Below are positions 9,730-40,326 of a stretch of 40,326 nucleotides of DNA, piece after piece. The position numbers and the translations under genes are program-made. Origin of the DNA: Terriglobia bacterium (GTDB taxonomy: Bacteria > Acidobacteriota > Terriglobia > Acidiferrales > UBA7541); the NCBI GenBank assembly GCA_023512135.1, contig JAIMAG010000020.1:1-40326 (forward strand), written 5' to 3'. Within the stretch, counting starts at the first letter, position 1; each line of letters begins with the position of its first letter. The notes under the pieces are model-generated. The model was given only the letters and a program-made list of their open reading frames with translations, ran no database searches and was not told the DNA's origin.

Positions 9730-11301
9730 ATGCAGTCGGGGGATCCGAACAGACGGGCTTGGACCGTACTGCGGGCGAGCGTGCTCCTGGCTCTGGTAGC
9801 CGCCGGCGAAAGCAGCGGGCAGCAGCCTCCCGCCATCCCGCCCGGCCAGGAACAAGCGGCCGCAGCAGCCGTGCGACCGGCCGAGCCCAAATTCCGCATT
9901 CTCCGCGCGGTGTCCGGCAGTCGGGGAGAACAGAAAGAAGGTCGCTACATCCTGCACGACCCGCGCACCGTCTTTCACATTCCGCACGACCGGCAGGTGA
10001 TCGTCTATTTCGAGTGGCAGGGCCCTGTCGGCAAACATCGCTTCGAAGGAATCTGGAAGAACCCGGAGGGAAAGGTGGCTGTCATTTCGGACTTCGAGTA
10101 CGAAGCGAAGCAGCCCCACTTTGCGGGTTACTGGACTCTGCTGCTGAGCGAAACCACGCCGACGGGTCTGTGGACGCTGGAGGCACGCATTGACGGCGAG
10201 TATGCCGGCTCGCACATTTTCCAGATCATTTCCAGCAGCGAGCCTCCCCCGATCCCGGACCCGCAGCCGCAGCCGCTCGCTCCGGCGGAGATCTACGAGC
10301 GGTTGAAGGACGCCACCCTGTTCATCGAGCGATTCGACGCAGACGGCAATCGAGTCAGCACCGGCTCCGGGTTCTACCTCGGCGAGTCTGAAGTCGTCAC
10401 GGCGTTCCAGGTGATCGACGGTGCCCATCGGCTGCGCGTGGTTCTGCCCGATGGACAGAGTGCGGAGGTGCAGGAAATTCTCGGCTGGAGCCGCCGACAA
10501 GACTGGGCGGTGCTGAAAGTGCCGGTGAAAGCTCCGGCGATTCTGCCGCAGCAAGAAAAACCGGCACGGCGCATTGGCGATTTCTACTACTCCCTGAATG
10601 CCCCCACTGAGGGCATGCGCACGATCATCTCCGGCAACCTGGTGGGCGAGCAGAATCACCCTACCAGTGGCCCGCAACTCAATCTCACCTTTGCGCCCAC
10701 GTGGCAGGCGCTGGGCGCTCCGCTGGTGGATGAATTCGGCAAAGTGGTCGGGATGCTCGGTGGCCGGCTGACGCCGAGCACATCTGGAGACCTGCTGGGA
10801 ATGGGAATCCGCAACGCTCAGCCAGGCATCGCACCTCCGCTCGCGGTGCCGATCGAAGTGCTGCCGAAATCTTCCGCCGAACGGAAAGCCACCACGCTGC
10901 AACAGATGCAGGCCAACGGGCAGTTCATCCCGCTGCTGCGCCGGACGACGCACATACTTTCGGCCACCCTGTCCAGAAAGCTCGAAAAAATTGGAAGCTT
11001 CCTGCACCCGATCGACACGGATACGCGGTTTTCGCGACGCCTCGGCAGTTTCCACTTTCAGGCCACCATTCGTCCGCAAGAGAAAGTTTCCGGCAATCAG
11101 ATGGCCGTTCTGCACTTCTACGACCTGGACAACAACCTAGTTGGAAAAACAAAGCCCACCCAGCTCAAGCTCCGCAAAGACAAGGTCACCTTCGTCACCT
11201 GGACGATCAATGCTGCCGGGTTGCGGCCGGGAATCTACCGGTTGGATTTTCTGCTCGACGAGCAGCCTCTCTGGCGCGTCTATTTCGAGCTGACCAACTG
11301 A
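9730..11301 (+). CDS. Exported HtrA-like pseudoprotease (catalytic His and Ser replaced)
   Basis: This 523-residue protein has an N-terminal hydrophobic signal (VLRASVLLALVAAG). Residues ~50-170 form a beta-rich domain. Residues ~195-380 form a trypsin-like S1C/HtrA fold, and a C-terminal beta domain of ~120 residues follows. The protease fold is recognisable from GSGFYLGESEVVTAFQVIDGAHRLRV, QDWAVLKV and QALGAPLVDEFGKVVGMLGG. In active HtrA enzymes the first segment reads TNxHV and the last GNSGGPLV. Here Gln227 stands at the His position and Leu328 at the nucleophile position; Asp258 is kept. The protein should therefore not cleave peptides and may act as a binding or scaffold protein in the periplasm or at the cell surface. 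No PDZ domain is evident. The gene is convergent with an S9 peptidase. Confidence 0.7.
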   Translation: MQSGDPNRRAWTVLRASVLLALVAAGESSGQQPPAIPPGQEQAAAAAVRPAEPKFRILRAVSGSRGEQKEGRYILHDPRTVFHIPHDRQVIVYFEWQGPVGKHRFEGIWKNPEGKVAVISDFEYEAKQPHFAGYWTLLLSETTPTGLWTLEARIDGEYAGSHIFQIISSSEPPPIPDPQPQPLAPAEIYERLKDATLFIERFDADGNRVSTGSGFYLGESEVVTAFQVIDGAHRLRVVLPDGQSAEVQEILGWSRRQDWAVLKVPVKAPAILPQQEKPARRIGDFYYSLNAPTEGMRTIISGNLVGEQNHPTSGPQLNLTFAPTWQALGAPLVDEFGKVVGMLGGRLTPSTSGDLLGMGIRNAQPGIAPPLAVPIEVLPKSSAERKATTLQQMQANGQFIPLLRRTTHILSATLSRKLEKIGSFLHPIDTDTRFSRRLGSFHFQATIRPQEKVSGNQMAVLHFYDLDNNLVGKTKPTQLKLRKDKVTFVTWTINAAGLRPGIYRLDFLLDEQPLWRVYFELTN

Positions 11302-25414: not shown

Positions 25415-26902
25415 ATGAAGGATCCATCCCGGCTCTATCGCTGGATGCTGCTGTGGACCAGTCTGGTCGCGCTGGGATTCCTGCTGGCAGCGGCCGTGCG
25501 GGAAAACCTGCTGGCGGAATGGCAGCAGCGGCAGCGTGCGTACCGTAAACTTCTCGCCGAAAAAGCCACGGATGCGCGCGGTCGGGAACTGCTGCGCAAC
25601 TTCCGCATCGAGCTGCGCCAGGTGAGCGTGCCGGCGCTGGGCGCGGTAGACCGCTGCGTGAGCTGCCATGTCGGCATCGACGACCCGCGGATGACCGACG
25701 TGCCGCAGCCCTACCGGCTCCATCCGGTGGAAATTCTCGAGCACCACCCGGTGGACCGCTACGGCTGCACCATCTGCCACCAGGGCCAGGGCGCGGCAAC
25801 AAACTTCCACGACGCAAAGGCCGAAGACGCGTACTGGGACTATCCGCTGCTGCCGCGGGAACTGACCCAGGCAACCTGCATGACCTGCCACGACGTCAGC
25901 CGACTGCCGCCCCAGGACGTCACGCTCGTGCTCGAAGGCATGCGACTCTACGAACAAAAAAGTTGCGGCTCCTGCCACAAGCTGCAAGGACGCGGCGGAG
26001 CGCTCGGCCCCGCGCTCGACAACGAGGGTCTGAAAACCAAGCACCAGCTGATTCTCACCAACCTGAAACCTCCGTACACGACCTGGCGCTGGCATCAGGC
26101 CCATTTCCGCGATCCAGCCGGCATTGTCCCCGGCAGCCAGATGAAAAATCCCACCGTCACCGAACGCGAGGCACTGGCACTCACAGCGTACATGCTCTCG
26201 CTGCGTCAGCGCGATGTTCCGGAAAGCTATCTCGCGCCGGACAAAATCGCACAGAAATTCCGCGCGCTGTCCCCGCAGCCACAGCCGGCCGAGCAGCTCT
26301 ACCGGATGTACTGCTTCGCCTGCCACGGGGACGGCACCTACGGCCGGTGGGAGAAGACGTTCCAGCGTTTCATTCCTGCCATCCGCGGCACGCTGGCCGC
26401 CACGGCCACCCGCGAGTATCTGGAGACACAAATTGCGCAGGGTCGTCCGGGGACGCAGATGCCTCCCTGGCATTCGCAGGCCGGTGGACTGCTGCCCAAA
26501 GAAATCACGGCGCTCGCGGACTACTTGCGCGCCTCGCCGGCGGCGCGGAGCGCACGCGACTTGGCGGCCCGCTCTCGACCCGTCGCCCGCGGCGACGCGG
26601 CACGCGGGCAGATGCTTTTCCTGCGGAACTGTGCCGGCTGCCATGGCGTGGCGGGCGTGGGCGGTGTGGCGCCCGAGCTGGCCAACCCGGTTTTCCTGCG
26701 TGCGGCAGACGACTCGTTTCTTGCCACCACCATCCGCAACGGCCGCGCCGCAACGGCCATGCCCGCGTTTCAGCGTCCGGACGGTGCGGGACTCTCCGAT
26801 GCTGAGATTGCCGACATCATCGCGTTCCTGCGCAGCCTCGAGTCGCCATCCCAGCAAACCGCGCAGGCACAAGACAAATCCCGGGCCGGAGGAAGCCAAT
26901 GA
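25415..26902 (+). CDS. Membrane-anchored hexahaem cytochrome c
   Basis: The 495-residue protein has one N-terminal membrane anchor (WMLLWTSLVALGFLLAAAV) and six CxxCH haem-c sites, starting at Cys81 (CVSCH), Cys118 (CTICH), Cys155 (CMTCH), Cys184 (CGSCH), Cys300 (CFACH) and Cys406 (CAGCH). The first three lie close together in a compact multihaem segment, while the last three each head a mono-haem cytochrome-c-like domain with downstream Met (GSQMKNP, GTQMPPW, ATAMPAF). Such an arrangement suits a wire between the bc complex and the extracytoplasmic molybdoenzyme. Its stop overlaps the next start (ATGA), so the two are translationally coupled. Confidence 0.9.
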   Translation: MKDPSRLYRWMLLWTSLVALGFLLAAAVRENLLAEWQQRQRAYRKLLAEKATDARGRELLRNFRIELRQVSVPALGAVDRCVSCHVGIDDPRMTDVPQPYRLHPVEILEHHPVDRYGCTICHQGQGAATNFHDAKAEDAYWDYPLLPRELTQATCMTCHDVSRLPPQDVTLVLEGMRLYEQKSCGSCHKLQGRGGALGPALDNEGLKTKHQLILTNLKPPYTTWRWHQAHFRDPAGIVPGSQMKNPTVTEREALALTAYMLSLRQRDVPESYLAPDKIAQKFRALSPQPQPAEQLYRMYCFACHGDGTYGRWEKTFQRFIPAIRGTLAATATREYLETQIAQGRPGTQMPPWHSQAGGLLPKEITALADYLRASPAARSARDLAARSRPVARGDAARGQMLFLRNCAGCHGVAGVGGVAPELANPVFLRAADDSFLATTIRNGRAATAMPAFQRPDGAGLSDAEIADIIAFLRSLESPSQQTAQAQDKSRAGGSQ

Positions 26903-29763
26903 GCAAACAAAAAAATAACGGCACCCCGCGCTGGTCGCGCCGCAACTTCCTGCAGACGGCCGCCGCAGCCACAGCCGCACTGGCTATCCCCGGCTGCGGC
27001 CGAAAGGAAAAGCCCGTACTCGAAGCTCTCAGCGGTGAGTTCGACCCGCTGCGGAGCTACCCGTACCGCGGCTGGGAAGATTTCTACCGCAAGCTGTGGA
27101 CCTGGGACAAAGTCGTCCGCTCAACCCATTCGGCGAACTGCACCGGCTCGTGCTCCTGGAAGGTGTACGTGCGCAACGGCGTCATGGTGCGCGAAGAACA
27201 GGCCGCCGACTACCCCCGCATCAGCGAAGACCTGCCGGACTACAATCCCCGCGGCTGCCAGAAGGGCGGCTGCTTTGTCGAATACGTGTACAGCCCGCAG
27301 CGGCTGCGCTATCCACTGATTCGCACCGGCCGCCGCGGCGAAGGCAAATGGCGCCGCGCGACGTGGGACGAAGCGCTCACGCTGATTGCGGAAAAACTGC
27401 TCGACAACATCTACCAGCACGGCCCGGACACTAACACGTTTTTCAGCGTCATTCCGGCGATGAGTCCCATCAGCTTTGCCGCCGGCGCTCGCCTGGCGCA
27501 CTACCTGGGCGGCGTGATGTGTTCCTTCTACGACTGGTACTGCGACCTGCCGCCGGGCGAGCCGCTCACCTGGGGCGTGCAGACCGAAGCCTGCGAATGT
27601 GCCGACTGGTTCAATGCGAAGTACATCGTGCTGTGGGGCTCGAATATTTCGCAGACGCGCATCCCCGATGCGCACTTCGCCTTCGAAGCGCGCTACAACG
27701 GCGCCAAGATTGTGGCCATCTCCCCGGACTTCAACTCTTCCTGCATCCATGCCGACCTCTACTGGCAAATCCAGCCGGGCACGGACACCGCCCTGGCGCT
27801 GGGCGTGGCGAAAATCCTGATCGACGAAGGGCTGATCGACGTGCCCTATGTGAAGGAACAAACCGACCTGCCGCTGCTGGTGCGCAAAGACACGAAACGA
27901 TTTCTGCGCGAATCGGACCTGCGCACCGGCGGCAAGGAGGACGTCTTCTACTTCTGGGATGCGCGCACGCAACGGCTGACCGAAGCGCCCGGCTCGATGG
28001 GCTCGGCGCGGAAAACGATTCGCCTGGACGATGCCGACCCGGCACTGGAAGGCAGCTACAGGGTCACTCTGGCCGACGGAAGTGGAGTCGAAGTGACGCC
28101 GGTTTTCGAACTGCTGAAGCGCCAGCTGGAGGCGTATCCCCTGGACAAAGTGGCTGCCCTGACCGGTCTGCCCGCGCACGAAATTCAGATGTTCGCGCGC
28201 GAATTCGGCACCCGCAAGCCGGCCATGATCATCCACGGCGCCGGAACGAACCACTGGTTCCATAACGACCTGGCCAACCGCGCAATGATTCTTCTGGTTG
28301 CGCTGACCGGCAACGTCGGAAAGAACGGCGGCGGCTTCAATCACTATGTCGGGCAGGAGCGGATCTGGCCCGAACACGGCTTCTTTGCACTGGCCTTTCC
28401 CGAAGGCCGGGCCAAGCAGCGTTTCCAGAACACCACGCTGTGGAGCTATGTACACTCCTCCAACCGCGATCCGCACCAGTACAACGGCCGCCCCATCGAG
28501 TGGTACATCGAAGAATCGGTGAAACGAGGCTGGATGCCCCTGTGGCCGAAATTGCGTGCCGGGGAAAAGCCCGGCCAGGGTCGCAAGCCGCGCGCCTTCA
28601 TCATCTGGCGTGCGAATTATTTGAATCAGGCCAAAGGCAACGAGCTCATCGAGGATTCGCTGTGGCAGGACCTCGACCTGATTGTGGACATCAACTTCCG
28701 CATGGACACCACTGCCCTGTACTCCGACGTCGTTCTGCCGGCGGCGAGCTACTACGAAAAAATAGATCTGAACTCGACCGACTGCCACAGCTACATGCAC
28801 ACGTTCGGGCAGGCGCTCGAACCGCTGTTCGAAAGCAAGACCGACTGGGCCATCTTCCATGCACTGGCAAAGAAGATTGCTGAGGTCGCGCGCAATCGCA
28901 ACCTGCCACCCTACCGCGACGAAGAATTCCAATGGGAGCGGGATTTCACTCGACTGGAAGAACAGTGGACCTCAGGCCATACCCTCGTGACCGATGAACA
29001 GGCTGCCGACTACATCCTGGCGCATTCGGCGGAGACAAAAGGCATGACCTACCAGAATCTGCAAGCGCAGCCGCGAAGGTTTGTGGCCACCGACCCGGAA
29101 GTCTGGAACAGCGACGTGGAACCCGGCATCGCCTACACGCCGTTCAAGCATCAGGTGGTGCAGAAGAAACCCTGGCGCACGCTCACGGGACGACAGCAGT
29201 TCTACATCGATCACCCGTGGTTCCTGGAGCTCGGCGAAGCGCTGCCCGTGCACAAAGAGCCTGTCGAAGAAAATTTCCCGCTCTACTGGAACACGCCGCA
29301 CGGCCGCTGGTCGATCCACTCCACCTGGCGCGACCATCGTGCCATGCTCCGCCTGCAACGCGGTGTGCCCATCGCCTACATGCACCCCGACGACGCCCGC
29401 CGCCGCGGCCTGCGCGACAACGACTGGATCCGTATCTTCAACACCACCGGCGAATGCATCTGCCGGCTGCAAATTCTTCCCGGCGAAAAACCCGGCCGCA
29501 TCACCATGTATCACGGCTGGGAAAAATTCCTCGGCTTCCAGCAGGGCGGCTGGCAGTCGCTCACCTACATCAAGATCAAGCCCACGCAACTGATCGGCGG
29601 CTACGGCCACGTGAAATTCCGGCTGAACTACTGGGGACCGACCGGCAACAACCGCGACATCAAAGTCGAAGTCGAAAAATACCGCGGCCCGGTGGCCCGT
29701 TATTCAGGGCGGGCCGTCCGAACGTCCCGCGCGGAAGCAGACACCCGGACCCGGAAGGCATAG
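26899..29763 (+). CDS. Tat-exported Nar-like molybdopterin catalytic subunit (type II DMSO reductase family)
   Basis: The 954-residue protein starts with a twin-arginine signal (SRRNFLQ, Arg14-Arg15) followed by a hydrophobic stretch ending in PGC (Cys33), so it is exported and may be lipid-anchored. The proximal cluster ligands read His77-x3-Cys81-x3-Cys85-x34-Cys120 (HSANCTGSC, RGCQKGG), the His/Cys pattern of the type II family. The YDWYCDLPP motif puts Asp212 as the likely molybdenum ligand, as in NarG. WGSNISQTRIPDAHF and the C-terminal MYHGWEKFLGFQQGGWQ also match nitrate-reductase relatives. Outward orientation and the absence of NarI resemble archaeal-type pNar, but selenate, chlorate, perchlorate or nitrite-oxidising relatives share most of these features, so the substrate is a best guess (nitrate). 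Confidence 0.85.
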   Translation: MSKQKNNGTPRWSRRNFLQTAAAATAALAIPGCGRKEKPVLEALSGEFDPLRSYPYRGWEDFYRKLWTWDKVVRSTHSANCTGSCSWKVYVRNGVMVREEQAADYPRISEDLPDYNPRGCQKGGCFVEYVYSPQRLRYPLIRTGRRGEGKWRRATWDEALTLIAEKLLDNIYQHGPDTNTFFSVIPAMSPISFAAGARLAHYLGGVMCSFYDWYCDLPPGEPLTWGVQTEACECADWFNAKYIVLWGSNISQTRIPDAHFAFEARYNGAKIVAISPDFNSSCIHADLYWQIQPGTDTALALGVAKILIDEGLIDVPYVKEQTDLPLLVRKDTKRFLRESDLRTGGKEDVFYFWDARTQRLTEAPGSMGSARKTIRLDDADPALEGSYRVTLADGSGVEVTPVFELLKRQLEAYPLDKVAALTGLPAHEIQMFAREFGTRKPAMIIHGAGTNHWFHNDLANRAMILLVALTGNVGKNGGGFNHYVGQERIWPEHGFFALAFPEGRAKQRFQNTTLWSYVHSSNRDPHQYNGRPIEWYIEESVKRGWMPLWPKLRAGEKPGQGRKPRAFIIWRANYLNQAKGNELIEDSLWQDLDLIVDINFRMDTTALYSDVVLPAASYYEKIDLNSTDCHSYMHTFGQALEPLFESKTDWAIFHALAKKIAEVARNRNLPPYRDEEFQWERDFTRLEEQWTSGHTLVTDEQAADYILAHSAETKGMTYQNLQAQPRRFVATDPEVWNSDVEPGIAYTPFKHQVVQKKPWRTLTGRQQFYIDHPWFLELGEALPVHKEPVEENFPLYWNTPHGRWSIHSTWRDHRAMLRLQRGVPIAYMHPDDARRRGLRDNDWIRIFNTTGECICRLQILPGEKPGRITMYHGWEKFLGFQQGGWQSLTYIKIKPTQLIGGYGHVKFRLNYWGPTGNNRDIKVEVEKYRGPVARYSGRAVRTSRAEADTRTRKA

Positions 29764-29772
29764 GAGGCAGCC

Positions 29773-30780
29773 ATGTCTCGACACCAGTACGCGATGGTCA
29801 TGGACTTGAACAAATGCCTGGGCTGCCAGACGTGCACGATTGCCTGCAAGAAGCTCTGGACGGACCGCGACGGCACCGACTACATGTACTGGAACAACGT
29901 CGAGACCCGCCCCGGCCTGGGCTACCCGCGGCAGTGGGACCGCAACGGCGGAGGCTGGAAAGACGGCGAGCTGCAGCCGGGCCGGCTGCCCACACTGGAC
30001 GACTACGGCGCGCCCTGGGAATACGACTACGAGCAGCGGCTCTACGAAGGCTCGGGCAAGCCCGTGATGCCTTCCCCGGATCCGCAGTCCGGCTGCAACT
30101 GGGACGAAGATGTCGGCGCGCTGAACGGCGACGACAACTTCTATTTCTACCTGCCCCGCATCTGCAATCACTGCACGTACCCGGCCTGCCTGGCCGCCTG
30201 TCCACGACAGGCCATCTACAAACGCGAAGAAGATGGCATCGTGCTGATCGACCAGGAGCGCTGCCAGGGCTACCGCTACTGCATCGCCGCCTGCCCGTAC
30301 AAAAAAATCTATTTCAACGAAATCACCGGAAAATCCGAAAAGTGCATCTTCTGCTATCCGCGGCTGGAAAAAGGCGAGGTGAACGCCTGTGCGGCACAGT
30401 GTCCGGGCCGGCTGCGTTTCGTTGGCATCCTCGATGATCCGGAATCGCCCGTGCACAAGCTCGTGCTTGTCTACCGCGTCGCCCTGCCGCTGTTCCCGGA
30501 AAAGGGCACGCAGCCCAATGTGTTCTACGTGCCGCCGTTCAATCCTCCGCGCCGCGGCAACTACGGCAAGAGCATTCTGGAAGACCCGCGGCTTCCGCTC
30601 GACTACCTTGTGTATCTGTTCGGGCCGGAGGTCAAAGACGTCATCCGGCGACTGGAAGCGGAGCTGGTCCGCGCGCAAAATGGCGAGCGCAGCGAAGTGC
30701 TGCAACTGCTGATCGGGCGGGATGCGGCCACGCGCTATCGCATCCCGGCGCGCGAACAGCTCGTGCAGATCAAGACCTGA
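29773..30780 (+). CDS. Fe-S electron-transfer beta subunit (NarH-like)
   Basis: The product has 335 residues without a signal peptide, so it would be exported together with the Tat-bearing catalytic subunit. Four cysteine groups hold four clusters: CLGCQTCTIAC, CNHCTYPACLAAC, CQGYRYCIAAC and CIFCYPRLEKGEVNACAAQC. In the third group Tyr replaces the second Cys, as Trp or Tyr does in NarH-type subunits, so that cluster should be [3Fe-4S]. The protein is shorter than E. coli NarH (~510) and matches the length of beta subunits of periplasmic type II enzymes. An AGGAGG lies 5 nt before the ATG; the spacing to the alpha gene is 9 bp. Confidence 0.9.
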   Translation: MSRHQYAMVMDLNKCLGCQTCTIACKKLWTDRDGTDYMYWNNVETRPGLGYPRQWDRNGGGWKDGELQPGRLPTLDDYGAPWEYDYEQRLYEGSGKPVMPSPDPQSGCNWDEDVGALNGDDNFYFYLPRICNHCTYPACLAACPRQAIYKREEDGIVLIDQERCQGYRYCIAACPYKKIYFNEITGKSEKCIFCYPRLEKGEVNACAAQCPGRLRFVGILDDPESPVHKLVLVYRVALPLFPEKGTQPNVFYVPPFNPPRRGNYGKSILEDPRLPLDYLVYLFGPEVKDVIRRLEAELVRAQNGERSEVLQLLIGRDAATRYRIPAREQLVQIKT

Positions 30781-30793
30781 TTCGGAGCACCAC

Positions 30794-31540
30794 ATGAACC
30801 AGCGAGGCCAATTGCTGACCGTTTTGCTTCTCCTGATGACCTCTGCGGCGCCGGCGTTTTCCCAGCAGCCGGCCCATACCGCTGCCCTCCCGCAGCATCT
30901 GCGCCTGAGGGCAAACTTCAGTCCGCAGTCGGCCGAGGTTTTGCTCGACCCGGCGGCACCCGCCTGGCAGAGCACTCCGGCACAGCGCATCGCGCTGCAC
31001 CGCACACCGCCGCTCTATGACACCGATCCGCCAGCTTCACTGGAAATCAGCTTCGTAGAGGTTCGCACACTGCGAGCCGCGGGCAAGCTGTTTGTCCACC
31101 TGAGCTGGCGCGACGCCTCCGCCGACTACGTCGAATTGCCTGCTGTGCCGGACACTCCACCCGAGCAGCGCTTCCTGAAAGAACACACGCTCGGCCCGGA
31201 GCGCTTCTTCGATGCCGCCGCCGTCATGTTCCCGAAAGATGCGCCCGGGGGCGTGGTTTCGCCTTCGTTGCAGATGGGCGATGCCCAGGGCCCCGTCAGC
31301 ATGTATTACTGGAACGCAGCGCGCGGCGCGATGCGGATGGAAGCCGCCGGCCGCGGCACCACGCGCCGCACCGGTGATTCATTTTCCGCGCGGGCGGTTT
31401 ATGCCTCCGGCACGTGGCAGGTCGTGCTGGAACTGCCCGAATTGCCGCCGGCAACGCCGCTCGCCTTTGCCATCTGGAACGGCAGCCAGCTCGACCGCGA
31501 TGGCCGCAAATATTTTTCTGTCTGGCACTGGCTGGAATAG
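30794..31540 (+). CDS. Haem-b gamma subunit, ethylbenzene-dehydrogenase-related
   Basis: The product has 248 residues starting at the ATG at 30794, 13 bp after the beta gene stop. A Sec signal peptide (LLTVLLLLMTSAAPAFSQQ) sends it to the periplasm. The rest is a beta-sandwich of the EB_dh type: SLEISFVEVRTLRAAGKLFVHLSWRD, ERFFDAAAVMFPKDA, MGDAQGPVSMYYWNAARG, and the ending LAFAIWNGSQLDRDGRKYFSVWHWLE. In ethylbenzene, chlorate and dimethylsulphide enzymes this subunit binds one haem b and links the Fe-S subunit to a soluble or membrane cytochrome c. Candidate axial Met residues lie in the MGD/SMYYW stretch; the Lys ligand is not certain. It replaces NarI as the electron entry point. Confidence 0.82.
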   Translation: MNQRGQLLTVLLLLMTSAAPAFSQQPAHTAALPQHLRLRANFSPQSAEVLLDPAAPAWQSTPAQRIALHRTPPLYDTDPPASLEISFVEVRTLRAAGKLFVHLSWRDASADYVELPAVPDTPPEQRFLKEHTLGPERFFDAAAVMFPKDAPGGVVSPSLQMGDAQGPVSMYYWNAARGAMRMEAAGRGTTRRTGDSFSARAVYASGTWQVVLELPELPPATPLAFAIWNGSQLDRDGRKYFSVWHWLE

Positions 31541-31548
31541 AGAAACCC

Positions 31549-32193
31549 ATGGCCGCAGAAACAGCTCCGAAACCAAAAGAAGCATCCGGCAGCGAAGACT
31601 CGGTGGACCTGTACCGAGTTTTTTCTTTTTTGTTCGGTTTTCCATCCCGTGAACGGTTCGCGTGGATGTGCCGGCCGGATTTCTCCAGCGGGCTGGCCAG
31701 TTTGTGGAACGAGCTCGGATGCAGGGGCAGATTCCCCCGCTGGCGAATGTTCGAGAGTTACGACCAGTACGAATCCGCATATATCGCGCTGTTTGACGTT
31801 GGCGTGCCTGCGCCCCCGGTGCCGCTGCTCGAATCGGCATGGCGCAAGTCGCAGCCGGCGCAGCAAGTCGTGCTCGACAACGTGAACTTTTACGAAGTGC
31901 TCGACCTGCGCTGTGATATGTCCCGCTATCCGGCAGACCATCTGCTCACGCAGCTCGAATTTCTCGCCGCGGTGCGCTACGCACAGGAAAGCACCGATGC
32001 CGAAATGAACCGGGACAGCCTGGCACGTCTGGAGCATGACTTCCTCGACCGCCACCTGCTGGCCTGGTTCCCCGCCGCCAGACGAAAACTGTGTGCACTC
32101 GACCCGCCGGTCTTTGCTCTGCTCGCGACGCTGCTCGAAGCGTTTCTCCGCATGCGGCTGCAAACCGGACTGCCCGGGCTCAGAACCCACTGA
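31549..32193 (+). CDS. TorD/NarJ-type molybdoenzyme assembly chaperone
   Basis: The product has 214 residues starting at the ATG at 31549, 8 bp after the gamma gene. It is all-helical and cytoplasmic. YRVFSFLFGFPSRERF near residue 22, YDQYESAYIALFDVGVPAPPVPLLES near residue 75 and DHLLTQLEFLAAVRY near residue 128 are typical of the TorD family chaperones that hold type II apoenzymes until the molybdenum cofactor is inserted and the Tat signal is released. It is the last gene of the respiratory operon; a tRNA fragment 109 bp downstream marks the edge of the integrative element. The stretch 32194-32301 contains nothing I recognise. Confidence 0.85.
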   Translation: MAAETAPKPKEASGSEDSVDLYRVFSFLFGFPSRERFAWMCRPDFSSGLASLWNELGCRGRFPRWRMFESYDQYESAYIALFDVGVPAPPVPLLESAWRKSQPAQQVVLDNVNFYEVLDLRCDMSRYPADHLLTQLEFLAAVRYAQESTDAEMNRDSLARLEHDFLDRHLLAWFPAARRKLCALDPPVFALLATLLEAFLRMRLQTGLPGLRTH

Positions 32194-32301: not shown

Positions 32302-32355
32302 TGGCGCGCCCGGCAGGATTCGAACCTGCGACCCTCTGCTTAGAAGGCAGACGCT
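32302..32355 (-). tRNA. 3'-terminal fragment of tRNA-Arg(TCT), probable attachment site
   Basis: Read on the minus strand, this gives a complete anticodon arm (TCTGC-CTTCTAA-GCAGA, anticodon TCT), variable loop, T arm (GCAGG-TTCGAAT-CCTGC), acceptor 3' strand CGGGCGC, discriminator G and an encoded CCA ending at 32302. The 5' half is missing: no GCGCCCG acceptor strand or normal D arm lies at 32356-32385, so it cannot fold into a tRNA. A perfect 3' half with an integrase gene beside it is the classic footprint of integration into a tRNA gene. The element then extends to the right, and the restored tRNA should sit at its far end. Confidence 0.75.
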
Positions 32356-32429
32356 CGGCATTTCCAGCAGATGGACAAGGCTTCCCTTCCTTTGACAAAG
32401 CAATACTTTATAATCCCGCCTGTTTTGCC

Positions 32430-32582
32430 GGTGCTACCTGGAATTGGCTGATTTTTGAGCCGTTTGGTAGCACCTAGGTAGCACCGAAACTGGCTCCCTG
32501 CTTCTGCTGCGCAGCAGTGGGTCCGCCCAGCTGCAGGGGCCGGTGCTACCGTGAATCCGCTCCGGTGCTACCCGGTGCTACC
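32430..32582. repeat. Six copies of the 9-mer GGTGCTACC upstream of the integrase
   Basis: Forward copies lie at 32430-32438, 32542-32550, 32564-32572 and 32574-32582; reverse copies at 32466-32474 and 32477-32485. All nine bases are identical in each. The two reverse copies are 2 bp apart, and the last two forward copies are 1 bp apart. They fill the space between the tRNA fragment and the integrase start, where arm-type integrase sites, excisionase sites or operators of the integrase gene are expected. The rest of 32356-32603 holds a TATAAT at 32409-32414 without a usable -35. Confidence 0.7.
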
Positions 32583-32603
32583 GCAGAGGAGAGACGCTAG
32601 CTA

Positions 32604-33950
32604 ATGCAGAAGAAACGCTTCACGTTCACGGGAGACAAGCTACGGGCACTGCCCGTTCCTTCCGGTGGTCGCGCCCGCTACTACGACGACGTCGTGCGCG
32701 GGCTGATGCTGGAGATCACTGAAAACGACGCCAGGAGCTTCAGGTGCTACAAAAAATTCCGGGGCAGGCCGACGAAGATCACGCTCGGCTGGTTCGACCC
32801 GAACCTGCCGGAAACACGCGACCTGCCGGAAGGTGCCGAACCGCTCGATCTGTTGCGCGGCAGCCGTCCCGCGCTCAACGTAAAAATGGCACGCAAGCTG
32901 GCCGTGGCCATCCTGGCCGAACTCGACACGGGCGTGAATCCCGCTGAAGAAGCAGCGCAGAGTCGCAGGGGCATCTCGCTGGGTGAACTGTTCGAGAAAT
33001 ACCGCGCCCATCTAAAGGCCATGGGGAAGAAGTCTCTCCCGCTGCGCGTGTGGATGTGGGAACGGTATCTCGGGCCGCTGCCCGAAATGACGAAGAAGAA
33101 GCACGGAGCCGAGCGCACGAAAGCTCTTGGTGCTGTGGACTGGTCACGGCGTCACCTGGGCGAGATCACGCACGCGATGGTGACGAAGCTGATGCTCGAC
33201 CTCGGCGAGAAGGTCGGACGCACGACGGCAAACAGGGTCGTTGAACTGCTCCGGGCTATGTTCAACTTCGCGCGGAGGCAGAAGCTGTACCAGGGCGACA
33301 ACCCAGCTGAGGATATCGAGCGCTTCCATCTGCCGTCACGTGAACGATTCCTGCAGGCGCACGAAGTCGAGCGTTTCTTCAAGGCGCTCACAGAAGAGAA
33401 GGATCCGGACTTCGCTGATTATGTTCGGCTTCTGCTGTACACGGGCGCGCACCGCGGCAACATTCTTCGCATGCGGTGGGACGAGCTCAGTTTGGACGGT
33501 GCCCAGTGGACTGTGTCGGGCGAGAAGATGAAGAACGGCAAGCCACTGGTTCTGCCGCTGGTCGAAGAAGCGGTGGAAATCCTGCGCCGCCGAGCTGCGA
33601 AAGCGAACGGCAACCCCTGGGTGTTCCCCGGCAACACGGTGGCCGGACACATGGGATCACCACGGAAGAAGTGGGCCGAGTTCGTGGAGAAGGCCGAACT
33701 GCCCGATCTCCGGGTTCACGATTTGAGACGCACGCTCGGCAGCTGGATGGCGAGCACTGGCGCGAGCACTACGATCACGATGAAGGCGCTGGGACACCGG
33801 TCGGTCACCACAGCGATGATCTACCAGCAACTTGCCGCTGATCCTGTGCGCGAAGCGGCGCAGCGAGCTGTGACCGCGATGCTCAACGCCGCAAAGGGCA
33901 AGAGCGTGCAGCTAAAGGGCCAGAAGGCACGCGTGGACCGCCATGAATAA
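32604..33950 (+). CDS. Tyrosine recombinase (integrase) of the genomic island
   Basis: The product has 448 residues. The C-terminal catalytic domain shows Arg284 (LLLYTGAHRGNILRMRW), His372-x2-Arg375 (RVHDLRRTLGSWMASTG), His398 (KALGHRSVTTAM) and the nucleophile Tyr407 (MIYQQL). The N-terminus has the short arm-binding fold of P4-like integrases (a GLMLEI-type strand, then KKFRGRPTKITLGWFD), and a SAM-like core-binding domain spans ~125-240. It starts ~250 bp from the tRNA-Arg fragment, with the GGTGCTACC repeats between. GAGGAGAG precedes the ATG. The next gene starts inside its last codons (8-bp overlap), so the two are co-transcribed. Confidence 0.95.
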   Translation: MQKKRFTFTGDKLRALPVPSGGRARYYDDVVRGLMLEITENDARSFRCYKKFRGRPTKITLGWFDPNLPETRDLPEGAEPLDLLRGSRPALNVKMARKLAVAILAELDTGVNPAEEAAQSRRGISLGELFEKYRAHLKAMGKKSLPLRVWMWERYLGPLPEMTKKKHGAERTKALGAVDWSRRHLGEITHAMVTKLMLDLGEKVGRTTANRVVELLRAMFNFARRQKLYQGDNPAEDIERFHLPSRERFLQAHEVERFFKALTEEKDPDFADYVRLLLYTGAHRGNILRMRWDELSLDGAQWTVSGEKMKNGKPLVLPLVEEAVEILRRRAAKANGNPWVFPGNTVAGHMGSPRKKWAEFVEKAELPDLRVHDLRRTLGSWMASTGASTTITMKALGHRSVTTAMIYQQLAADPVREAAQRAVTAMLNAAKGKSVQLKGQKARVDRHE

Positions 33951-34584
33951 ACAGCCACTCACCTACGAGGATTTCCTGGCCCTGGCACATGATGATCTGC
34001 GCCCGCGTGGCAGCGAGAAGGCCTTAAACGAAGCGCTGGTCACTCTGCGCGATTATCGAAGAAGAACCAGGCCGTGGACCGAGGAGACGGAGCGCGAAGC
34101 GCGGCAGATGATCAAGGACTTCGCCGTAGAGTTCCTGCGGTACAGTGAAGCATGGAGGCGCGTGCCCCCCAACAGCACGCTTCGCGCGCGGCTGCATCGT
34201 GTGACCGCTGCGCTGAATCGTGCCGACAATCTCATGCGGTGCGCCACTGCTTTCGAGGCTGCCCTGCTCGCTCGTTTCTACGGTTCACGAAGCAAGTTCA
34301 CTGACGGGCTGGAACAGCTGAAGAAGCTGGTCGATGCCAGTAAGTCAGCGGAGGCCGCAGTTGCTCGCACCAAAGGGCGCGGCCTACCCCACCCAAACAG
34401 GTTCCTGGTGGAGCGCTGTTGGAAAATGGCGTTCATGTTCTCTGGCCGCTTGTACGGTCTCTCGAACGTGGACGACTCTCCGCTGGTTCGATTCGCTCGT
34501 GCTGTCCATGAATACGCCACGGGCCGCGCTCCAGCAGGACTCTACTACCATGCTGACCAGCTGCGGCGCGCACTTAAGAAATGA
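33943..34584 (+). CDS. Hypothetical island protein
   Basis: The product has 213 residues, mostly helical and basic, without signal peptide, membrane segment or a domain I recognise. The start ATGAATAA overlaps the integrase stop. Central heptad-like leucines (LRARLHRVTAALNRADNLMRCATAFEAALLARF) suggest a helical bundle. A PHPNRFLVERCWKMAFMFSGRLYGLSNVDDSP segment near residue 150 is the most distinctive part. Coupling to the integrase suggests a role in mobility or in the element's maintenance, without direct evidence. Confidence 0.7.
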   Translation: MNKQPLTYEDFLALAHDDLRPRGSEKALNEALVTLRDYRRRTRPWTEETEREARQMIKDFAVEFLRYSEAWRRVPPNSTLRARLHRVTAALNRADNLMRCATAFEAALLARFYGSRSKFTDGLEQLKKLVDASKSAEAAVARTKGRGLPHPNRFLVERCWKMAFMFSGRLYGLSNVDDSPLVRFARAVHEYATGRAPAGLYYHADQLRRALKK

Positions 34585-34714
34585 TCCCCGCACATCCGGT
34601 TGGTATTTTCTCCCACAAAACGGACGGTTTCTAGCTCATCTCATGGATCTTCCCCAATAGACAACAGCGTTGCCCATGGCCTAGCTTGGCCGCGCTTGGA
34701 GGGAGGTTGCTTCG

Positions 34715-34927
34715 ATGAAGAGAAACGGGAACGTCGAGGCAGCGAGCACGGTGTTGCTGGACGAGCAGGCGGTTGCCGAGCGGCTCGGGGTAACGCGAAA
34801 CTGCCTGGCCAAATGGCGCTGCCAAGGTCGCGGGCCAGCCTTCATCAAGATTGGGCGTTTGGTTCGATATAAGCCGGAAGCCATTGAAAAATTTCTCGAC
34901 CGACGCACCGTTGAGCCTGGACGCTGA
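34715..34927 (+). CDS. Excisionase-like / MerR-type HTH protein
   Basis: The product has 70 residues with SD GGAGGGAGG upstream of the ATG. The core, VLLDEQAVAERLGVTRNCLAKWRCQGRGPAFIKIGRLVRYKPEAIEKFLDRR, is the winged-helix helix_turn_helix_17 type found in excisionases and small element regulators. The (G)PAFIKIGRLVRY wing is diagnostic. In this position, after an integrase and before replication genes, it probably works as recombination directionality factor or regulator. Confidence 0.88.
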   Translation: MKRNGNVEAASTVLLDEQAVAERLGVTRNCLAKWRCQGRGPAFIKIGRLVRYKPEAIEKFLDRRTVEPGR

Positions 34928-34994
34928 AGCCAAAACAGGAAGGCCCGCGTGGGGGCGCGGGCCGGATTCGTGAAGAACGGGAGTTCGAACAGCG

Positions 34995-36149
34995 ATGTCA
35001 ACGGTAGCAAAGCTACAGGCTCGCGGTCAAGGCCGGAACGCAGTAAATGAGCGCGGCGTTCCGGATCTGGCAGCGGCGAAACTCATTCCCATCGAAAGCG
35101 TGGTGGACACTTTGCAACTAGAACGTCACGGACGCATGGTCAGGTGCTGGAGACCGGAGAACCACGCCCACGGGGATCGGACGCCCAGCGTCGGCATCTG
35201 GCGCAGGAAGAACCGGGTGAAGTGTTTCGTGTGCGACGTGAAGCCGCTCTCCTCGATCGACCTGGTGATGAACGTGTTGGGCATGGATATCTTCGGCGCT
35301 CTGCTGTGGCTCGACGCCAATTTCGGTTTGCCGCGCATTGCCCGAGGCACCCACTTAGTCTCCCGCTCACCGAGAAATCCGCACTCCCGTGTAGGAGCGA
35401 GTGGCGACCGGCTGGAATCGGTTGTGCGCTCGGGCCTGTGGGGGCAACTGAGCACTGCAGAAGCACGCCTGTTGAAAGTCCTGGACACTCTCGCTGATGA
35501 AACCGGCACGGTCACACTTTCCTACGCCGGGCTGCGCAGGTTCTCGGGGTTGGGCAGCGATTCGTCTGTGCGGGCTGGCATCGGTGGCCTTCAGCGCCGT
35601 CACGCGGTTGAGGTCATTGCCGGTCGCGGCGGTGACGGCTTTCCTGCCGCCAACACCTACAAGCTGACGCTCGAGCACGAGGACTTCCTTCGCCTGCTGC
35701 GGGCCTGCCACGCTGATACCTACGAGGAGATCGAGAAAGAACGGCAGCTGCGCGCTCAGATTCGCCGCCACCGCCGTCTTCAATCTTCTCCATCCTCTCC
35801 CGGGTCATTTTCAGCGCTATCCGAATCCACTCCGGGCGGGGGCACTGCTATTACCGGTAACAAGATTCTCTACACTAGGTGTAGAGCAGAAAATCTCAAC
35901 GCTACAACTACTGGAGCGGCGAAATTGACCAAGGCGGAGACCACGAATCGGCGTGAGACTGCAAATGACTCAGAAGTGAAAGGACGAAGCCCAAACGGAC
36001 AGAGCCGAAGGAGCGCAGGACGAAACAGTCTCGCGCCGACTTCCTGGAATTGGCCGCACTGTGGGTCGAAGACACGCAGCTTCAGAAAGAATACGCAGAG
36101 GACTTCCTTGCCTCCCAGCGAGGGGCAGACCCAGAAAGGATGCGGCTGA
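34995..36149 (+). CDS. CHC2 zinc-finger primase-like protein with winged-helix region
   Basis: The product is 384 residues. Residues ~30-105 match the DNA-primase zinc-binding domain: IPIESVVDTLQL, then Cys51, His57 (or His59), Cys77 and Cys80 in CWRPENHAHGDRTPSVGIWRRKNRVKCFVCD, followed by SSIDLVMNVLGMDIFGALLWL. No TOPRIM catalytic domain follows. Instead residues ~150-235 (TAEARLLKVLDTLADETGTVTLSYAGLRRFSGLGSDSSVRAGIGGLQRRHAVEVI) look like a winged helix. The last ~100 residues are low-complexity and basic and may not be genuine, since the DNA there contains a perfect palindrome and another open frame. It may help start replication of the element or regulate it. Confidence 0.72.
   Translation: MSTVAKLQARGQGRNAVNERGVPDLAAAKLIPIESVVDTLQLERHGRMVRCWRPENHAHGDRTPSVGIWRRKNRVKCFVCDVKPLSSIDLVMNVLGMDIFGALLWLDANFGLPRIARGTHLVSRSPRNPHSRVGASGDRLESVVRSGLWGQLSTAEARLLKVLDTLADETGTVTLSYAGLRRFSGLGSDSSVRAGIGGLQRRHAVEVIAGRGGDGFPAANTYKLTLEHEDFLRLLRACHADTYEEIEKERQLRAQIRRHRRLQSSPSSPGSFSALSESTPGGGTAITGNKILYTRCRAENLNATTTGAAKLTKAETTNRRETANDSEVKGRSPNGQSRRSAGRNSLAPTSWNWPHCGSKTRSFRKNTQRTSLPPSEGQTQKGCG
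35868..35886. promoter_or_regulatory. Perfect 8-bp palindrome, operator-like
   Basis: CTCTACAC-TAG-GTGTAGAG. The inner TACAC/GTGTA half-sites resemble operators of BlaI/MecI-type repressors, which recognise TACA/TGTA. It lies in the low-complexity 3' part of the primase-like frame, roughly 380 bp upstream of the ParB-domain gene, so it may regulate the genes to its right. No such repressor is encoded in the window. Confidence 0.35.
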
Positions 36150-36266
36150 CGAATCAGCACACGAGTACTGAAAATTCCCACTTTGCGTACTCGCGGGTCC
36201 TTTCCACCCCGTACCGGGCCTCGCGGGGGACGGCGGCCCCGACGCCGCTCCAGTCGGGCATGAAAA

Positions 36267-36575
36267 ATGTCGCTGTCGTTGTCGTTTTCCGATGTGAGGT
36301 ATGCAGCCTTGAAGGTTCAGCTGGTCGAGCTCAACCAGATCAAGCCCTACACAAGAAATCCCCGCAAAAGAACCCAGGACGCCATCGCCCGGCTGGCCGC
36401 CAGCATAAAGCGGTATGGCTGGCAGCAGCCCATCGTGGTGGACAGAGACTTCGTGGTCATCATCGGCCACGGGCGGCTGGAAGCGGCACAACTGCTGGGC
36501 CACCAGCGTGTGCCCGTGGTGGTGGCGAAAGACCTGACTTTGGACTGGCAGAAGACTCTCCCAGCTTCTACCGCA
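36267..36575 (+). pseudogene. ParB N-terminal-domain gene truncated by the CRISPR array
   Basis: From the ATG at 36267 the protein reads as a ParB/Spo0J-type nuclease-like domain: VQLVELNQIKPYTRNPRKRTQDAIARLAASIKRYGWQQPIVVD, then VVIIGHGRLEAAQLLGHQRVPVVVAKDL with the GHGR motif near residues 67-70. Family members continue after this point for at least 60 residues with a helical DNA-binding region or a methyltransferase. Here the similarity stops near 36538. The last 37 bp before the first repeat have exactly spacer length, and the frame then runs into repeat DNA until a stop at 36905. The gene is therefore broken. A further open frame from TTG 36050 (LAALWVEDTQLQKEYAEDFLASQRG) overlaps it and is unassigned. 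Confidence 0.7.
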
Positions 36576-39500
36576 GCTTCAATGGGGCCGCGATCATTCG
36601 ATCGCGGAAATATACCTCCTTGGGACTACAGGCGCTGGATATCTACGAGGCTTCAATGGGGCCGCGATCATTCGATCGCGGAAATCTCGCGCCCATACGT
36701 CCACGTGGCACGCGGCACCAAGGCTTCAATGGGGCCGCGATCATTCGATCGCGGAAATACCCTTTCTCTGGCGAAATTCCATGCTCTGCGGAAAGCTTCA
36801 ATGGGGCCGCGATCATTCGATCGCGGAAATGCTTACACTGCCTTCCAGCACCAGCTTCGAACGGTTTGCTTCAATGGGGCCGCGATCATTCGATCGCGGA
36901 AATAACGGGCAGTTTAGCCTGCCCGTCACGGAGTTCACGTTGCTTCAATGGGGCCGCGATCATTCGATCGCGGAAATCGTCCTTGACCTTTCCTGTCAGG
37001 ATGACCGTCGAGAGGCTTCAATGGGGCCGCGATCATTCGATCGCGGAAATCTTGTGCGATTGCTTCAAAAATGACGAAATGGTCTGCTTCAATGGGGCCG
37101 CGATCATTCGATCGCGGAAATACCGAGAAAAAGACCACAGCGCAGCTTCGGAACCTGAGCTTCAATGGGGCCGCGATCATTCGATCGCGGAAATTTGGAC
37201 AAGCTATATGAGGGCAACAAGCCCAGAGAAGCTTCAATGGGGCCGCGATCATTCGATCGCGGAAATCTGATACGCCTTGAGCTCGTCCTCGAGCGCGTCA
37301 AAGCTTCAATGGGGCCGCGATCATTCGATCGCGGAAATGCCCCGCGGAGTCATCAGCCCGGAAAAATCATCCGGGGCTTCAATGGGGCCGCGATCATTCG
37401 ATCGCGGAAATCATCCGACAAGTGTTTAGGGCTACCCTTGAGGCCGAGCTTCAATGGGGCCGCGATCATTCGATCGCGGAAATCAGTGAGCAGCTAAGGG
37501 AATTCATTCTGCAGCGTCAAAGCTTCAATGGGGCCGCGATCATTCGATCGCGGAAATCACCTTAGCGGAAGCCATAGAGGCCTGCGCCGAGGCGCTTCAA
37601 TGGGGCCGCGATCATTCGATCGCGGAAATCTCCTGCCCCACATGCCGACGGCTGGAGTGGCCAGACCTGCTTCAATGGGGCCGCGATCATTCGATCGCGG
37701 AAATTTGCTCGATTGTTTCTCCGGGGTCGAGCTCCACGTCGCTTCAATGGGGCCGCGATCATTCGATCGCGGAAATGCAGCTTGCCACTGAACCACTGGA
37801 GGCCAACTATGCGGGCTTCAATGGGGCCGCGATCATTCGATCGCGGAAATCAATGTCTGAGGTTGCGAAACTTGTTTCTTTGCTCGTGGGGCTTCAATGG
37901 GGCCGCGATCATTCGATCGCGGAAATGGAACCGCTCCCAGAGCCCTGGAACGGGGATTAAAGGCTTCAATGGGGCCGCGATCATTCGATCGCGGAAATGT
38001 GCTCGTGCTGCCGCCGACGCTGGCCGTGTTCCCGCAGGGGCTTCAATGGGGCCGCGATCATTCGATCGCGGAAATCTGTTCGTCTTTGATGACATGGAGC
38101 TGGCCCTGCAAGCTTCAATGGGGCCGCGATCATTCGATCGCGGAAATTTTTGGGCTTCGTGAACGTCAAAGCAGCGCAGATGCTGCTTCAATGGGGCCGC
38201 GATCATTCGATCGCGGAAATGAAAACTGCGCAAAAAGGGTGATGTGCCATGCCGAGGCTTCAATGGGGCCGCGATCATTCGATCGCGGAAATAGAATCTC
38301 TCGGCGCGGTCGCTCATCCGCGCAACCGTGCTTCAATGGGGCCGCGATCATTCGATCGCGGAAATCCAGCGTTCCGAGTATGCTGCGCGCGTGAAAGGAG
38401 AAGCTTCAATGGGGCCGCGATCATTCGATCGCGGAAATGACCCAGCAGGGGCACAATGACCGTCAGCGCACCGTAGCTTCAATGGGGCCGCGATCATTCG
38501 ATCGCGGAAATGACCCGGAGAAGGGTCTTGCAGACACGGTGATTGGCCCGCTTCAATGGGGCCGCGATCATTCGATCGCGGAAATAAATTCGGCCACTCC
38601 GCTTTGTGGCAGGCTGCGCAGGTGCTTCAATGGGGCCGCGATCATTCGATCGCGGAAATGGCGATACTGGGTGAAGATCTTTCGACCTGCCAAGGCTTCA
38701 ATGGGGCCGCGATCATTCGATCGCGGAAATAGCAGGAAGATTGCAGAGAAACTTAACGCGAAAAGCTGCTTCAATGGGGCCGCGATCATTCGATCGCGGA
38801 AATGTGCGGTATCGTTGGGATCTCCGGTATGTTTGCGAAGCTTCAATGGGGCCGCGATCATTCGATCGCGGAAATACGTTCGGCAGATTAACCCTTCCGG
38901 AAAGGAGAAAAGCTTCAATGGGGCCGCGATCATTCGATCGCGGAAATGCAGCTGCTGGCCACGAGCTTGGCGCGACTTTCACGGCTTCAATGGGGCCGCG
39001 ATCATTCGATCGCGGAAATCTACCGGTGATTTGCCGAACGTGTCCCGTTGCAGAATGCTTCAATGGGGCCGCGATCATTCGATCGCGGAAATCAAATGAT
39101 TGCCTACTATAAGGGCACCGTATTTGATGGCTTCAATGGGGCCGCGATCATTCGATCGCGGAAATGGATAAGCCGGCGCAAAACCGGCTTCAGCATCTTC
39201 GCGCTTCAATGGGGCCGCGATCATTCGATCGCGGAAATCTTGCGGCCCTCGAAGAAGCTTTTGATTACCTTGCCGCGCTTCAATGGGGCCGCGATCATTC
39301 GATCGCGGAAATCTACCACTTCCCCGATACCTATGTGGTAGCTGCGATGCTTCAATGGGGCCGCGATCATTCGATCGCGGAAATATGGCCGCGTGCTCGG
39401 TTACTGGATCGGCTCTGAAAAGCTTCAATGGGGCCGCGATCATTCGATCGCGGAAATCCGCTATCGGGCACGCGCAACGCTCCAGGTAAACCTGCTTCAA

Positions 39501-40326
39501 TGGGGCCGCGATCATTCGATCGCGGAAATATCCAGCAGTCGGCCATCCTGGCGCAGCAGCGCCAGGCTTCAATGGGGCCGCGATCATTCGATCGCGGAAA
39601 TGTTTTCAGAATCTTCCGCTTTCCTACATTTCAGGTTGCTTCAATGGGGCCGCGATCATTCGATCGCGGAAATTGCTGAAGGAATTGCAAGCGGGAGATG
39701 AAAAGGAAAAGGCTTCAATGGGGCCGCGATCATTCGATCGCGGAAATGCCTCTCGCGCATCGAAGCCGATTGGGAGCGCAGCGATGCTTCAATGGGGCCG
39801 CGATCATTCGATCGCGGAAATGCCGTCGATGAATACCTAGATTTGCTCGAAATGTTCGAGGCTTCAATGGGGCCGCGATCATTCGATCGCGGAAATCAGG
39901 ATAGCCCGGCACTGGCCGTGCAGCTGAGTTTGGCTTCAATGGGGCCGCGATCATTCGATCGCGGAAATCCCGCAGGAAGGAGTTTCTCGCGCAGGCCGAG
40001 GCTCTGGCTTCAATGGGGCCGCGATCATTCGATCGCGGAAATGAGTCATCGTTTCTCCTTTCTGTGCGCCAAAAACCAGCTTCAATGGGGCCGCGATCAT
40101 TCGATCGCGGAAATGGGAGACGAAGGCTTCGCAACGCAAGGCTTGGAAGGGCTTCAATGGGGCCGCGATCATTCGATCGCGGAAATTCCCGCAGCAGCGC
40201 GATTCCAATCTCGTACTCGACCAGGCTTCAATGGGGCCGCGATCATTCGATCGCGGAAATTGAAAAAACTAAGTGAAACCGAAGTGGCTACGATGTTGCT
40301 TCAATGGGGCCGCGATCATTCGATCG
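36576..40326 (-). CRISPR. CRISPR array, 51 full repeats plus one cut by the window end, 51 spacers
   Basis: The 36-bp repeat begins GCTTCAATGGGG, contains the perfect stem CCGCGATC-ATTC-GATCGCGG and ends GGAAAT. By eye every copy is identical, from the first at 36576-36611 to the last, partial one at 40298. Spacers are 35-41 bp, mostly 36-38, and all differ. Read on the minus strand the repeat ends in ATTGAAGC, close to the ATTGAAAC/G ends that become the 8-nt 5' handle of crRNAs in many type I and III systems. I therefore expect transcription from the minus strand, a leader beyond 40326 and the oldest spacers next to the broken ParB gene. No cas gene is visible, so the type is undetermined. 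ORFs in the array are artefacts of the ~72-bp period. Confidence 0.98.

Follow-up and report, generated by a model that had tools for sequence, protein, structure and literature searches.

A type I-G-family CRISPR array directly adjoins, and probably lies inside, an integrative element in a tRNA-Arg(TCT) gene of a Terriglobia bacterium

At the right-hand end of a contig of a Terriglobia bacterium, a tRNA fragment is followed by an integrase gene, a few further genes and a long CRISPR array, which raises the question whether the array is carried by an element integrated in the tRNA gene or merely stands next to it. The window analyzed here (40,326 nt) is the whole of contig C50 of a 2.83-Mb metagenome-assembled genome (51 contigs, 97% complete). 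An initial annotation, made from the letters of the window, had proposed that the array rides on the element. The array, with its 51 spacers, directly adjoins a tRNA-integrated element; we argue below that it probably lies inside that element. The window contains the following features:

26899–32193, plus strand: host respiratory oxidoreductase operon, left flank of the island (Pfam matches for the beta, EB_dh and delta subunits)
32302–32356, minus strand: 3′ fragment of tRNA-Arg(TCT), from the 3′ side of the D-stem to CCA; displaced att copy
32430–32582, four copies on the plus and two on the minus strand: six copies of GGTGCTACC (9-mer count in the window), candidate integrase arm-binding sites
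32604–33950, plus strand: tyrosine integrase (Phage_integrase, E 3.5e-22; PHROG integrase, 9e-55; weak match to Arm-DNA-bind_3)
33943–34584, plus strand: 213-aa open reading frame overlapping the integrase stop codon; no family match
34715–34927, plus strand: HTH_17 excisionase/AlpA-like protein (HTH_17, 2e-10; PHROG excisionase, 2.4e-9)
34995–36149, plus strand: primase-like protein with a CHC2-type zinc finger N-terminus (weak matches: CHC2, 0.0014; PHROG primase, 0.0024)
36267–36560, plus strand: 3′-truncated ParB_N gene (Pfam, 4.6e-9; PHROG_620 matched only at 6–88 of 217)
36576–40326, crRNA strand predicted to be minus: CRISPR array of 51 repeats and 51 spacers plus a partial repeat; trailer at left, leader predicted at right, off the contig

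The minus-strand tRNA-Arg(TCT) 3′ part that the initial annotation placed at the left edge is real: its 55 nt match the intact tRNA-Arg(TCT) gene of a relative, G016, with 100% identity over all 55 nt, and the full-length match is unique within its own assembly. The fragment and the tyrosine integrase gene next to it are correctly configured as the pair that marks one end of the tRNA islands cataloged by Islander, and the extent of the fragment fits the anticodon-centered class of crossover sites (PMC4383910). All six copies of GGTGCTACC in the 40-kb window, where 0.11 would be expected, fall between the fragment and the integrase gene, in direct and inverted arrangement. Short direct and inverted repeats near an integrase gene are the typical look of arm-binding sites of tyrosine integrases. 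The cluster is thus arm-site-like, and as a set of putative arm-binding sites it lends new support to the attachment site; a search of viral contigs with the arm-site DNA gave no match. An att repeat between 34 and 36.5 kb would, as the initial annotation pointed out, place the array outside the element; no second copy of the att core occurs from 32357 to 36600, and the window as a whole holds just 9-nt chance matches.

The host operon to the left encodes a molybdopterin alpha, an FeS beta, an EB_dh-type and a narJ-like delta subunit. The beta/EB_dh/narJ order is shared with contig C69 of G001, the sole same-genus genome found, in which GGGCGCGCCA occurs at the matching place 3′ of narJ before the sequences diverge and the contig ends. 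GGGCGCGCCA equals the final 10 nt of that tRNA gene, kept at about positions 235–244 of locus L013 on that contig; the site downstream of narJ there perhaps holds a different element.

Which way the element extends can be read from the relatives of its integrase. Eight more distant relatives (37–44% identity) were found in the class. BLAST located tRNA 3′ fragments directly upstream of the integrase gene in five loci (L240, L241, L244, L245 and L246); inspection of the upstream sequences by eye, which left out L247, revealed a tRNA-Ser-like 3′ end in L242, and none was seen upstream of the integrase gene in L243. The element in genome G093 (L251/L241, C64:15279–25074) is complete: an intact tRNA-Arg(TCG) gene at C64:15279–15355 forms its integrase-distal end, and a 50-nt direct repeat of the 3′ part of that tRNA ends at about C64:25074, beside the integrase gene, for a total of 9.8 kb. 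As read from these sequences, the rule in this integrase family is that the displaced fragment adjoins the integrase gene and the intact tRNA stands at the far side. Because related integrases keep the fragment beside them and the intact tRNA distal, the element in our window should run rightwards over the array; the initial reasoning that it lies to the right of the fragment is therefore supported by both the fragments beside related integrases and the complete G093 element.

The gene order that had been read from the sequence, with integrase, excisionase-like, primase-like and ParB-domain genes followed by the array, is borne out by Pfam and PHROG, with weak matches for the primase. An open reading frame comparable in size (211 aa) to the 213-aa frame occupies the corresponding position in L246 (genome G330). 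Among the 299 genomes searched in the class, 12 others encode a homolog of the primase-like protein; in several of them it adjoins an integrase gene and an intact tRNA gene (Lys, Asn, Cys, SeC or Ile), and in G128 the primase-like and ParB_N genes are consecutive on one strand. The primase query matched nothing among viral contigs. What can be seen of the element ahead of the array amounts to 4.2 kb and contains no structural gene.

Phage satellites have no full phage genome, carry integrase, regulator and replication genes, and depend on a helper. The order of integrase, AlpA/excisionase-like HTH and primase-like genes in the window resembles that of phage satellites and small integrative elements (PICI- and P4-like), and the integrase has a relative on the 9.8-kb G093 element, which bears Phage_capsid and rep genes; unlike satellites, however, the visible part has no structural gene, a broken ParB gene and a CRISPR array. 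The element is likely satellite- or prophage-like, with a right boundary, cas genes, mobility and targets that are predicted. The gene content of the G093 element (integrase, HTH, rep PF23343 and an HK97-type capsid protein, PF05065) resembles that of a capsid-carrying satellite in Acidobacteria.

The array itself agrees with its initial description as a "50-plus-spacer" array: it comprises 51 identical repeats of 36 nt and 51 spacers of 35–41 nt, all distinct, and the contig end cuts through a partial 52nd repeat. The repeat belongs, among the matches listed, to a widespread family of the form GCTTCAATGGGGCC-stem-GGAAAY. From the matches listed, 80 loci of this repeat family were examined, and 24 of them have a clear Cas4–Cas1 fusion homolog nearby; a 25th match, in L144, is fragmentary. 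The L092 protein used as query is Cas1g and has Cas56g as its neighbor, which identifies type I-G, and the window's repeat is accordingly placed in a type I-G family. As in described type I-G systems (PMC9638904, PMC10504553), other genomes have the repeat family co-located with Csb2 and the Cas4/1 fusion; unlike in those systems, the cas operon (Cas4/1, Cas2, Csb1/2/3 and Cas3) is not seen in the window's genome. Cas1 was absent from the assembly in a search that was positive in control genomes, and searches of the assembly for Csb2 and Csb1, run without a positive control, were negative.

Three features bear on the orientation of the array: read on its reverse strand, the repeat finishes in ATTGAAGC, an ending typical of crRNA handles; degenerate repeats in relatives are found mostly toward the left; and nearly all Cas4–Cas1-positive loci have their cas genes on the side matching the window's right, L150 being a clear exception. 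On these grounds the array is probably transcribed on the minus strand, with its oldest end at 36576, and the leader and cas operon are expected to its right, beyond the contig end. Transcription on the plus strand, with the leader at left, was rejected on the same three features. Among 89 genomes of the host family, just three have the repeat family, an occurrence consistent with horizontal gain. The three include "Acidobacteria bacterium isolate gp2 AA91" (L105 matches L252 along 1966 nt without a difference), which places the host among the acidobacteria.

The spacers gave no indication of their targets, and the immune or inter-element competition role suggested initially for the array is a putative one: the spacers had no match in phage and plasmid records, two 24-nt spacer pieces were absent from viral contigs, and against the examined loci they produced only short matches of 14–18 nt.

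Related arrays near mobile elements or tRNA genes were seen at three other loci. On a 36-kb IMG/VR contig (L273, IMGVR_UViG_3300049734_000449), a six-repeat I-G-family array at 10287–10810, with a repeat 2 nt off that of the window, turns its trailer side toward phage tail-fiber, exonuclease and excisionase genes, with 126 bp left to the contig end. In an acidobacterium (L112, 4770–7641), two repeats of the family lie 0.4–0.5 kb from an intact tRNA-Asn gene, beside a cut C-terminal integrase fragment, and a second integrase gene is broken. In a Terriglobia metagenome-assembled genome (L090, 1830–2102), a tRNA-Pro gene precedes the trailer end of an I-G-family array by about 125 nt. L273 and L112 suggest, as anecdotes, that encounters between I-G arrays and integrative elements recur.

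The junction between the element and the array is where the case for containment must be weighed. The ParB-domain gene reported initially is present but, as a refinement, truncated where the array begins: HMM and BLAST alignments end at about residues 90–98, the homologs examined are 261–512 aa and the aligned viral homologs 268–512 aa long, and the open frame continues into the CRISPR repeats, with about 15–40 nt from the end of homology to the first repeat. Since the break in parB falls right where the array starts, the CRISPR locus may have been foreign to the original element. Such a junction could also have arisen outside the biology of the element, if parB and the array had been joined in a chimera of the metagenome assembly and the true place of the array were elsewhere. 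The contig does end inside a repeat, a frequent assembly break point, but the join in question falls outside the repeats; ParB homology stops earlier, the unique stretch between offers no obvious cause for a false join, and the parallel layout on L273, with the trailer end of an array of nearly the same repeat facing phage genes, argues for a genuine arrangement. We consider a chimera improbable.

A second explanation takes the junction as genuine and the array as a mere neighbor: an ordinary chromosomal type I-G locus, whose trailer end was fused to parB by an illegitimate deletion that also removed the right end of the element. The truncation of parB within a few tens of nucleotides of the first repeat is what such a fusion would leave; the G093 element, the sole complete relative, is short and without a CRISPR array; and the mini-array of L112 beside a cut integrase fragment at tRNA-Asn offers a similar picture. 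The same deletion, however, would have taken the rebuilt, host-needed tRNA-Arg(TCT) gene with it, unless the host had a second copy, and none is present in the assembly. We regard this explanation as unlikely, though less so than a chimera.

That argument turns on the intact tRNA gene. Islander requires an intact cognate tRNA gene in the same orientation at the other end of an island, 2–200 kb away, and differs in this respect from our case, in which the regenerated gene would lie outside the assembled sequence (PMC4383910). Neither an intact tRNA-Arg(TCT) gene nor the 5′ half of one was found in the 51-contig assembly, nor was another contig bearing the CRISPR repeat, which could have represented the right end of the island. 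The absence is weak evidence, because tRNA-His and tRNA-Pro(TGG), both expected, were likewise not found. An intact gene should exist, since the sampled relatives have tRNA-Arg(TCT) and host genes use AGA codons (6/4959 sampled), and the orientation of the fragment predicts it to the right, which favors a position of the array between the fragment and the intact gene. Neither an intact copy elsewhere, which the initial annotation had named as a possible refutation, nor the right-hand copy that it predicted was found in the assembly. The direction of the element bears out the initial proposal, but containment itself is inferred: the contig breaks off within the array, the assembly has neither the right boundary nor the intact tRNA gene, and parB is truncated where the array begins.

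Taken as a whole, the locus is best explained, we think likely, by an integrative element in tRNA-Arg(TCT) with a type I-G locus in its right part. By this explanation, the tyrosine integrase would have inserted the element into the 3′ half of the minus-strand tRNA-Arg(TCT) gene downstream of the respiratory operon; the host's original 3′ half would have been displaced to the left, to 32302–32356, and a 3′ copy borne by the element would make the tRNA whole again at the element's far end, on the right. The type I-G locus would occupy the right part of the element, where its trailer end interrupts parB; at least 51 spacers would run rightwards, with the leader and cas operon after the contig end. 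Were cas genes indeed present there, the element would take along, whenever it moves, an adaptive immunity of its own against the phages and elements that it competes with.

CRISPR-Cas systems on ICEs/IMEs, prophages and plasmids are known (PMC9841420, PMC8743540, PMC9071438), and the window resembles them in having an array on an integrated mobile element. The mobile-element subtypes reported are I-C, I-E, III-A, IV-A1 and IV-A3, on CRISPR-carrying plasmids and ICEs/IMEs of 102–430 kb (PMC9841420), whereas the window presents an I-G-family array, seen without cas genes, on an apparently small element. CRISPRs of ICEs/IMEs preferentially target prophages, and those of plasmids and prophages mostly target other plasmids and prophages (PMC9841420).

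We tentatively raise the possibility, which we hold more doubtful than containment itself, that adaptive immunity, array and memory are mobile among acidobacteria as a unit, in the form of a whole type I-G CRISPR-Cas system of over 50 spacers aboard a small, satellite-like tRNA-Arg element. As CRISPR on mobile elements is already known, the occurrence of type I-G on such an island would extend the picture modestly: subtype I-G and small tRNA-targeted elements would join the list of mobile CRISPR carriers. If the array truly lies inside the element, its spacers would reveal the phages or rival elements that the carrier has fought, and a long record of infection would be passed to a new host by a single integration.
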